A stretch of 41,047 nucleotides of DNA, taken from positions 1 to 41,047 of the forward strand of contig JAABQI010000307.1 in the NCBI GenBank assembly GCA_011391545.1. The letters are read 5' to 3'. A model generated the notes under the pieces. The model was not told the origin of the DNA, searched no databases, and saw nothing but the letters and a program-made list of their open reading frames with translations. Shown here piece by piece: positions 18,671 to 21,063 of the stretch. The position numbers and the translations under genes were made by a program. The stretch comes from Rhodoferax sp. GTDB lineage: Bacteria; Pseudomonadota; Gammaproteobacteria; Burkholderiales; Burkholderiaceae_C. Numbering within the stretch: the stretch's first letter is position 1; every line of letters starts with the position of its first letter.

Positions 18671-18721
18671 AGGGGCGGTATTGTCGCAGCCTTGTTTCAT
18701 CATTCTCTGGGGGATACGCAC

Positions 18722-20083
18722 ATGGACATCCAGGCTCTGCAGCAAAATTTGCGGGAATTTGCCGCCGCCCGCAACTGGCAGCCATTCCATACACCCAAGA
18801 ATCTGAGCATGGCGCTGATGGTGGAGGCCGCCGAGCTGGCTGAGATTTTCCAGTGGATGACGACTGAAGCCTCTCAGGCGGCCCATCTTGATCCGGCAAC
18901 CAAGGAAAGAATCGCGGATGAGGTGGCAGACGTGCTGCTCTACCTGCTGCAAGTGGCGGACCACTGCGCCATTGATTTGCCAAGCGCAGCGGCCAACAAG
19001 CTGGCCAAGAACGCCATCAAGCATCCCCCGGCACCTTCCAGGGCTGCGCATGCCCGAGCACCCGAGCCGGCCCGCACGGAGGCGGCCGCCGCAGCTCAGA
19101 TCGGCGCCACAGCCCCGGCAGGCACGGTGCAGCCGGCCCAGCAGACCCACGTGCTCGTGGACTGGGAAAACGTGCAGCCGAAAGACCGGGACATTCAGGC
19201 CCTGGTGCCGTCCGCCACCGATGTCTGGCTGTTTCACGGCCCCAACCAGAAAAATGTGGCGGTCAACCAGGCGCTGTTTGGTCAGCGGGCCACGCTGGTG
19301 CCGATTGCCAGGGCAGGGAAAAACGCGCTGGATTTTCATTTGTCGTTCTACATGGGTTACATCGCAGCGCGCAACCCGCATTCCAATTTTGTCGTGATCT
19401 CCAACGACAAGGGTTATGCGCCGATGTTGGAGCACGCCAGCATTTTGGGTTTTACGGCGCAGCAACTTGGGTTTGTCGGCGCATCGGGACAGGTCAGGAA
19501 GGCGGCAGCGGCCAAGACGAAAAAAACAGCGCCGGCGGCCCAAAGCGTTGCAACGCCAGTCCCGGCAAAAATAGCGTCTGCAAAGAAGCAGGTGGCATCG
19601 ACCCCTTTGAGGCAAACCGCGCCAGCTCGCAAAACCGCATCCGTCCTGCAAGGTGTGACCGTCAAAAAGGCGGCAGTCGCCAAACCAGCAGTCACCAGGA
19701 CGGTTGCTGTCAATCCCGGCAAAGGCCCGTCTGCCAGGGCGCCAAAAGCTGCAGCGGTTGCCGGTGACAAAAAGCCAGTCGCACGAACCGTCCAGCCGGC
19801 GGCGGCGCCTCAGTCCAGTGTGCCGCCCAAGAGAGTCAAACCCCAGGCATCGAAAAACCCAAAGCCTTCAGCCGAGTTGGACGCGGCAGTGCGCCATGTG
19901 CATGCGAGTCTGCAAAAGACAGCGAACAAGCCAGCGCGCAAGGCACGCCTGCTGGCGGCCATCACCTCCCTGCTCAATGAAACTTCCAGTGATGCCGTCC
20001 TCGTCACCGAGGTGCTGGCCAGGCTGGTGAGCAATGGCTTCGTGGTGGTGGACGATCAAGGCGGCGTGCACTTCAGTCCCTGA
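18722..20083 (+). CDS. MazG-like nucleotide pyrophosphohydrolase fused to a PIN-like nuclease domain
   Basis: One uninterrupted 453-aa frame. Residues 1-101 are a compact MazG-like/RS21-C6-type NTP pyrophosphohydrolase: [12 protein letters not shown] gives the metal ligands Glu35, Glu38 and Glu41, and [11 protein letters not shown] gives Glu67 and Asp70. Stand-alone members normally stop soon after the [10 protein letters not shown] block, seen here at 93-102. Instead an Ala/Pro linker (103-142) leads to a PIN/NYN-like domain (143-251): VLVDWENVQ with Asp147, [12 protein letters not shown] with Asp204, and [14 protein letters not shown] with Asp229, the acidic triad expected for a nuclease. 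Residues 260-385 are Lys/Ala/Pro-rich, and 386-453 form a separate small C-terminal domain. The ribosome binding site is GGGGGA. It is divergent from purU. The function is unknown; nucleotide cleaning combined with RNA cutting is a guess from the domains. Confidence 0.88.
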
Positions 20084-20160
20084 GCGGGCGACAGCAAAGT
20101 ACGGGCAGCGCGAGCATGATTGGCATCTGTCAAAAGTGGCCAGGCGCTGCTTGCCGCGTG

Positions 20161-20166
20161 GATAAT
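20161..20166 (+). promoter_or_regulatory. Possible -10 element (GATAAT) for dapF
   Basis: GATAAT ends 6 bases before the dapF ATG, with no convincing -35 box and no ribosome binding site in between. If used, it would give a leaderless message. This is the second such arrangement in the window, after psd. Confidence 0.3.
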
Positions 20167-20172
20167 TGGCCC

Positions 20173-21063
20173 ATGCGAATCCCCTTTACCAAAATGCAAG
20201 GTGCCGGCAACGACTTTGTGGTGCTCGACGAGACCCGAAACCGCTTCGGTCTGGGCACCGCGCAGTATCGGTTTCTGGCCGACCGCCACTTCGGCGTCGG
20301 TGCCGACCAGATTCTGACGGTGCGCCCGTCACCGGTGCCGGGCATTGACTTCGAGTACCTGATCCACAACGCCGACGGCGCCGAGGTGGAGCAGTGCGGC
20401 AATGGCGCGCGTTGTTTTGCGCGATTTGTGCGCGATGCCGGCCTAACCCAAAAAGACGCGATCCGGGTGCAGACCAGGGGCGGGGTGATCGAGCCGGTGC
20501 TCAAGTCCGATGGCCGCGTCACCGTCAACATGGGCACGCCGGTGTTCGAACTGGCGCGCATTCCCTTCATACCGGGTCTGGTGCCGTCCGAGTCTCATGG
20601 AGGCTGGCAGCAATGGCCGCTGCTGCTGGCCACGCCGGGACACGACACGGTGGTGCGGGTGGCTGTGGTGTCGATGGGCAACCCGCACGCGGTGCAACTG
20701 GTGGACGATGCCGATGCCGCGCCGGTCTTGCAGCAGGGCCCCTTGATCGAAAGCCACCCGTTTTTCCCGAACCGGGTCAATGCCGGCTTCATGCAGGTGC
20801 TAAACCGCCGCCAGATCCTGCTGCGGGTGTATGAGCGCGGCGCCGGCGAGACGCTGGCCTGCGGCTCGGGCGCCTGCGCCGCCGTGGTGGCGGGCATCCG
20901 GCTTGGTCTGCTCGACGCTGACATCGACGTCTATGTGCAGACTCACGGCGGCGAGCTCGCCATTGCCTGGGCCGGCGACGGTGCGCCGGTCATGATGACC
21001 GGCCCGGCCACCACCGTGTTTCAAGGTGAAATTGAAATCCCCGACGACCTTCCCAACGCGTAA
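20173..21063 (+). CDS. dapF: Diaminopimelate epimerase
   Basis: A 296-aa cofactor-free epimerase converting LL- to meso-diaminopimelate for lysine and peptidoglycan. It starts [19 protein letters not shown]. The two catalytic cysteines are Cys75 in [13 protein letters not shown] and Cys230 in LACGSGACA. The length is a little above E. coli DapF (274 aa) because of a loop around residues 137-160. ATG 20173 is preferred; an upstream in-frame ATG (20116) adds a non-family stretch. It heads the conserved order dapF-DUF484-xerC and links to the DAP-adding MurE further right. Confidence 0.96.

Follow-up and report, generated by a model that had tools for sequence, protein, structure and literature searches.

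The closest described systems are a nucleotide hydrolase and several PIN-like nucleases. DCTPP1 (RS21-C6), an enzyme of the MazG type, has a pocket that includes H38, W47, W73 and Y102, and its His38 contacts the cytosine (PMC4491611, in the text available). Nucleases of the NYN type carry an acidic triad, and the spacings published for it in the accessible part of PMC11346440 are 25 residues in a B. fragilis NYN protein (118/143), 26 in MARF1 (426/452) and 23 in VPA0982 (92/115). In bacterial LK-nucleases (PMC2848206, in the text available) and in MARF1, a PIN/NYN domain precedes a winged-helix(-like) domain, and DS-3 of DefensePredictor is a single-protein PIN RNase for which defence was shown (PMC13092281, in the text available). 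A preliminary description of the present locus, made from its letters, knew of no system that combines MazG with a PIN domain. Our search of the PMC literature, whose scope most subscription papers lie outside, likewise found no description of a MazG-PIN7/NYN architecture.

The window, the whole 41,047-nucleotide stretch of a Rhodoferax contig that was analysed, contains one frame that runs uninterrupted from the ATG at 18722 to the TGA at 20081-20083 and encodes 453 aa. The single open frame of the preliminary description was thus borne out at 18722-20083, and the residues that it named (E35, E38, E41, E67, D70, D147, D204 and D229) stand at those positions in the translation. Its architecture of MazG plus a PIN/NYN-like domain, with metal ligands and an acidic triad, was also right and is conserved, as judged by Pfam, a phmmer search of the PDB and alignments. 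NCBIfam gave no match for the fused protein. The gene is laid out as follows:

18722..20083, forward strand: whole fused gene, 453 aa plus stop (reading frame, Pfam).
18709..18714, forward strand: Shine-Dalgarno-like GGGGGA 5' of the ATG, read from the sequence.
18722..19030, forward strand: DCTPP1-like MazG domain (all-alpha NTP pyrophosphohydrolase), residues 1-103; Pfam MazG-like, DCTPP1/RS21-C6 at 9e-21, and E35, E38 and D70 invariant in 17 rows.
19031..19138, forward strand: Ala/Pro linker, residues 104-139, from the alignment; GC 0.787.
19139..19507, forward strand: PIN7/NYN-like nuclease domain with D147, D204 and D229, residues 140-262; Pfam PIN7 1.9e-27, NYN 1.3e-5, and D147, E149, N201, D204 and D229 invariant in 26 PIN7 rows.
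19508..19870, forward strand: Lys/Ala/Pro-rich, histone-H1-like arm, residues 263-383; 18 K and 6 R, 1 D and 0 E in 121 aa, with Pfam HC2 in 10/48 relatives.
19871..20080, forward strand: small C-terminal winged-helix-like domain, residues 384-453; recurs C-terminally in PIN7 proteins, with weak winged-helix matches.

By profile and ligands, the head is a DCTPP1-like MazG domain. Pfam PF12643 (MazG-like) matched residues 33-102 with 33.5 bits (cut-off 27, E 5.1e-8), and the PF03819 match of the fused protein (18.9 bits) stayed below the cut-off of 22. A phmmer search of the PDB returned DCTPP1/RS21-C6 as the solved structure closest by sequence to the N-terminal part. The MazG metal ligands ExxE...ExxD are kept as E35, E38, E67 and D70. 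Across 17 aligned fused proteins, E35, E38, D70, D147, E149, N150, K200, N201, D204, N228 and D229 were invariant. E41 and E67 were nearly so; locus L003 is without E41 and L007 without E67, and MazG activity may therefore be weakened in some members. In an ungapped phmmer alignment, the eight DCTPP1 pocket residues named in the available text of PMC4491611 map to L10, W19, E35, E38, W45, E67, D70 and Y74. Seven of them are conserved, and in the base pocket W19, W45 and Y74 are retained; the exception is the cytosine-contacting His38, which is Leu10 here.

The nuclease domain matched PIN7 (PF18475) at residues 145-240 with 96.4 bits (cut-off 34) and NYN (PF01936) at residues 143-262 with 26.2 bits (cut-off 24.2). 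The preliminary description had allowed that the acidic triad might be lost in alignments to PIN domains. We found the opposite, in that the triad is invariant, together with E149 and N201, in 26 PIN7 domains, fused and alone. The spacing of 25 between residues 204 and 229 matches the NYN spacings in the accessible part of PMC11346440. The only PDB structure returned by a PIN profile was MARF1, at the sub-threshold E values of 0.27 and 0.31, and D204 and D229 line up with MARF1 in the alignment at E 0.27. OST-HTH was absent from the six Pfam matches of the fused protein at E up to 1. From these residues, the two catalytic centres look intact.

The Lys-rich arm of the preliminary description is real, with 24 K/R, one D and no E over its 121 residues. 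Among the 25 of 52 Pfam families listed for the relatives, the arm matched the histone-H1-like family HC2 in 10/48 of them, and NCBIfam hist_H1_lk_Burk matched in 7/48. The small C-terminal domain proposed earlier is likewise real. In an iterative search, the last 70 residues were found again as the C-terminal end of PIN7 proteins, whether or not these have MazG (50 domain matches, a few of them weak), with E values that lean to inclusion because the search was seeded by the window's own domain. Some fused PIN7 proteins (L074, L075) have this domain in two copies. A PDB search with it gave weak winged-helix matches only, the best (E 0.026) being of the histone H5/Z-alpha type. The arm and the C-terminal domain together suggest nucleic-acid binding. 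These same matches are what would favour a PIN7 domain that acts on DNA or only binds nucleic acid, in a protein that is a chromatin-like or regulatory factor and not an RNase. However, low-complexity arms readily give histone matches, and the aspartate triad does not vary among 26 diverse PIN7 rows; we regard this alternative as very unlikely.

Homologues sharing both domains, which the preliminary description had proposed to seek, were found in several related genera. When genome contigs were scanned with patterns taken from the full length of the fused protein, 66 loci matched. MazG and PIN share one frame in 18 of them, MazG stands alone in 47, and one is a PIN-side fragment. Among 200 genomes of the family (own included), 84 matched and 15, own included, had a single MazG+PIN7 frame, so that the fusion is present in at least 14 of the 199 others; in one further genome (G118) the PIN match ran to the contig end. 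Six of these 14 fusions were the same matches as in the first set (L068/L017, L069/L009, L073/L016, L076/L006, L078/L005 and L079/L015), and 26 distinct fused relatives were left after the six sequences common to both sets had been removed. The fusion is present in named isolates, among them Variovorax ginsengisoli, Thiomonas delicata, Rubrivivax gelatinosus and Aquabacterium humicola. In 349 genomes of the phylum, no fusion was seen beyond the window's own family at the sensitivity of that search. No fused relative was seen in phages (10 records, all matching the MazG part) or in plasmids, where none of the 20 records listed out of 57 covered 80% of the query.

The tail also occurs without MazG. 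Stand-alone PIN7-arm-C-terminal-domain proteins are present in the family and beyond, and over-cut-off matches to PIN7 without MazG, in open frames of 102-383 aa, were found in further families of the Burkholderiales and in other parts of the phylum. Stand-alone PIN7 genes are also carried on plasmids, and both of the two plasmids that were opened were typed as conjugative. On these two MOBH plasmids (L156 and L157), the PIN7 gene lies amid mostly hypothetical genes of similar order and size. On a MazG tree, which has only 103 columns and many weak forks, the fused rows are not one clade (AU p 1.9e-6), indicating that, across the family, the tail was repeatedly joined or repeatedly lost. The fused PINs lie close together on the PIN tree, with a few stand-alone ones among them. 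One version of the PIN tree contains the window twice and one mis-cut row (L137); the other is cleaner and does not fix the place of the window's PIN among the fused relatives.

These observations bear on whether the fusion has any consequence. The tail might act on its own, the MazG being a tolerated N-terminal tag or an oligomerisation core with no coupling between the two. A tail that is complete as a stand-alone protein elsewhere, PIN7 alone on plasmids, a MazG that is complete alone in other genomes of the genus and a join that resembles an in-frame insertion are all as expected from such an incidental fusion. Yet this pair is met again in several lineages, the over-cut-off PIN7 matches outside the family (frames of 102-383 aa) showed no large N-terminal partner of another kind, and the metal ligands are kept in nearly all of the 17 fused rows. 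We consider it rather unlikely that the fusion is incidental. For MazG, dN/dS ranged from 0 to 0.35 in five pairs of fused relatives, several with few changes and one saturated; the corresponding ranges were 0.06-0.41 for PIN and 0.21-0.38 for the arm. The C-terminal domain, for which dN/dS was computable in four of the five pairs, had values of 0.14 to 0.20 in three and 0.78 in one.

To place the window's own copy, we compared it with the genus. Including its own genome, 42 of 89 genomes matched; 47 of the 88 others matched no part, and an intact fusion was seen in none of these 88. In 29 of the 41 other matching genomes the loci themselves were inspected, and the rest were judged by match extents and frame lengths alone. 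In one genome (G237), the match was weak (29%) and contained five stops. A close stand-alone MazG is present in 20 of the 88 (L097-L116), with dapF adjoining or near in 19 of the 20. The MazG-dapF arrangement was found at 29 other loci (20 distinct sequences, titled contigs included), with purU upstream of MazG in 12 of them; in the remainder, that place is taken by different genes or by the end of the locus. The comparison marks two further features:

19028..20155, forward strand: DNA present here and absent between MazG and dapF in other genomes of the genus; both ends approximate.
20161..20166, forward strand: GATAAT, -10-like, just 5' of the dapF ATG (20173); kept in the window and in the relatives' loci printed, with a putative promoter function.

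The preliminary description had considered that close relatives might show two separate genes with a stop near codon 103, as a sequencing indel or a local fusion would produce. Such a stop is indeed present in other genomes of the genus, but tblastn found no PIN gene or remnant beside it, and the same architecture is present in other genera. For these two reasons, we conclude that MazG-PIN7 is a genuine recurrent fusion and that the window's copy is lineage-specific and not a sequencing error. The tblastn searches for PIN remnants behind stand-alone MazG covered L019-L065 and L081-L125 and found none, and in four gap sequences (L110, L112, L028 and L055) nothing was better than E 0.3. In a rooted tree of dapF, DUF484, purU and MazG with 10 outgroup rows, the window nests with L108, L024 and L107 (100/98) inside the stand-alone loci. 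A single clade of the stand-alone MazG loci, equivalent to a single loss, was rejected (p 6e-58); had the fusion been ancestral at this site, it would have to have been lost independently several times (about seven, counted by eye on the tree). Compared in six bins with 8 stand-alone and 9 fused genes, the window's MazG was on the whole nearer to that of its genus up to about codon 93, with ranges that overlap in two bins and a last ten codons that do not decide. The Ala/Pro linker of the window protein is longer than that of the 16 other fused rows in the alignment. At the MazG end, the junction resembles an in-frame insertion. Given the nesting among stand-alone loci, the lack of a PIN remnant in the loci searched, the MazG nearer to the genus and the longer linker, the most likely course in the window lineage is that a resident MazG gene acquired the tail at its end.

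We had considered GATAAT as a relic of the old MazG stop. It is kept in other genomes of the genus whatever their MazG end, and it is therefore more likely promoter-like, which is no proof of direction. In several of these genomes, the MazG stop overlaps the GATAAT before dapF. The dapF start is probably at 20173 and not at the upstream ATG 20116 of the frame list, and dapF may be transcribed with almost no leader. By eye, the MazG-dapF gap holds a Phd-like antitoxin and a VapC/FitB-like PIN toxin at L110:1815-2617 and at about 690-1515 of L112; with such pairs in two genomes of the genus, the gap looks like a recurrent insertion spot. At L028:2421-2913 and L055:4312-4613, the gap contains repeat-like DNA with GC-rich motifs common to both.

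An assembly chimera would also yield a fusion seen in one genome of the genus. The source genome is fragmented (318 contigs, 79% complete), no near-identical second assembly was met in the contig, family and genus scans, and the genus has no second intact fusion among the genomes searched. Against this, the frame is kept through the junction, the flanks of the relatives are found on both sides, GC does not change sharply (0.585 in the PIN part vs 0.589 in MazG), and isolates of other genera have the same architecture. A chimera is thus hardly credible.

The gene neighbourhoods differ between the window and the other fused loci. The window's copy is surrounded by the housekeeping genes psd, purU, dapF and DUF484 and lies outside any defence island, which counts against the reading that we favour below. 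No adjacent VapBC-type antitoxin was found, the neighbours being purU and dapF. Within about 4 kb of the fused loci, we found no conserved operon partner by a clustering that also merged reverse-strand frames, and large genes beside two of the loci gave no PDB match. None of the families of PADLOC-DB 2.0.0 matches the fused protein. PADLOC genes (matches at E up to 1e-10) were within about 4 kb of 6/14 fused loci, compared with probably 1/14 random stretches. They comprise Qat, AbiE, an LmuA-type metallo-beta-lactamase (MBL) twice, PDC-S06 and PDC-M60. In particular, QatC-QatD is near L007. AbiEii is near L067, where AbiEi is deduced from a one-member tally. L010 has the LmuA-type MBL fold, and the near-identical gene of L009 is deduced from a two-member MBL tally. 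L013 has PDC-S06, and L014 has PDC-M60A, with PDC-M60B/C deduced from one-member tallies. L013 and L014, from two Rubrivivax species, have near-identical fused genes and different PADLOC candidates (PDC-S06 and PDC-M60) within about 2 kb downstream, a region that resembles a defence-island hot spot.

The one-sided Fisher p was 0.04, and 0.12 with L009/L010 and L013/L014 collapsed. The test set was 14 fused loci with flanks and 71 of their 72 proteins, one long L067 neighbour being left out, with 25 of 48 families listed. Genes were taken as the longest non-overlapping frames of at least 150 aa, which at this GC include some false frames in test and control alike. The control was 14 random stretches from seven fused-gene genomes, one of which (G032, with the match of L017) the test set also contains; its 76 proteins matched 35 families. 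The listing covers 25 of these control families, 21 of them PD-T4-6 and the others mad6, MkoA, PglW and a kinase model, all with one member each. We take PD-T4-6 and these others to be kinases. On that assumption the control matches would amount to one protein kinase gene, and the ten families outside the listing could add loci. In this small sample, the defence neighbours lean weakly to an accessory, perhaps defensive, role. Of the two functions suggested in the preliminary description, a stress or anti-phage effector and a house-cleaning factor that couples nucleotide removal to RNA turnover, they thus slightly favour the former.

A housekeeping role would fit the window's surroundings. MazG would then clean damaged or surplus (d)NTPs and the PIN7 tail would turn over RNA or damaged nucleic acid, with no part in defence. 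The DCTPP1-like pocket is largely kept, the window's copy lies among housekeeping genes, and of the 20 genomes of the genus with a close MazG, 19 retain it paired with dapF. The fusion itself, in contrast, is present in only 15 of 200 family genomes (own included) and was seen intact in none of the 88 others of the genus, 47 of which match no part. This is too patchy for a core function, and the fused loci elsewhere lack conserved neighbours. We therefore regard pure housekeeping as unlikely, albeit with some real weight.

The reading that we favour, with a confidence somewhat short of even, is a two-activity accessory effector with a stress or anti-phage role, in which a MazG core degrades (d)NTPs and a tail binds and cuts RNA. 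The DCTPP1-like domain would probably form the usual tetrameric core and hydrolyse (d)NTPs, perhaps of the dCTP type or modified nucleotides, to monophosphates. Each subunit would bear a PIN7-arm-winged-helix tail, whose Lys-rich arm and winged helix would hold nucleic acid while the PIN7 domain, with its NYN-type aspartate triad, would cut the putative RNA targets. Nucleotide state and RNA cleavage would thereby be coupled in one protein. The tail would be a module that also exists on its own and was linked to MazG on more than one occasion or else lost repeatedly; in the window lineage it was most likely added, in frame, to the end of a stand-alone MazG gene already resident there. The patchy distribution and the defence-gene neighbours at several other fused loci suggest the stress or anti-phage role. 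A bolder version, which we think quite unlikely and offer as speculation, is an immunity system encoded by one gene, with an RNase that is gated by nucleotides. (d)NTPs that are modified or altered by a phage would, when the MazG tetramer binds or consumes them, release the PIN7 nuclease, which the H1-like arm and the winged helix would otherwise keep on nucleic acid. Depletion of nucleotides and cleavage of RNA would then be triggered together. The tail would spread as a module able to be spliced onto MazG genes that are already resident.

With a nucleotide hydrolase and a predicted RNA-cutting module in one polypeptide, a coupling of the nucleotide pool to RNA cleavage can be tested directly. 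Both halves are known kinds of enzyme, the join recurs across genera, and the empty site is visible in other genomes of the genus. If the defence role is true, a single gene would encode the effector, one for which the PADLOC release searched has no match.

Finally, we compared the protein with the known systems. It resembles DCTPP1/RS21-C6 in the phmmer match (9e-21), the ExxE and ExxD ligands and seven of the eight pocket residues named in the available text, and differs in having Leu10 for His38 and a 350-residue nuclease tail that DCTPP1 is without. The stand-alone PIN7 (PF18475) proteins of the Betaproteobacteria have the same PIN7 domain, often a K/A/P-rich linker, and the same C-terminal domain, in a comparison that covered PIN7 genes other than those on plasmids; they have no MazG, and most are about 200-320 aa. 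Proteins with NYN (LK-nuclease/DUF88) and OST-HTH/LOTUS, such as bacterial LK-nucleases and MARF1, share the order of a PIN/NYN and then a winged-helix(-like) domain and have a matching triad. The window protein differs in its MazG N-terminus, and since its best Pfam family is PIN7 and not NYN and it has no OST-HTH, we do not file its tail with the LK-nuclease/OST-HTH proteins. DS-3, compared by its description in the available text of PMC13092281, is like the window protein a single-protein PIN RNase without a cognate antitoxin, whereas it has a split PIN domain and no MazG, and its defence activity was shown where ours is proposed.
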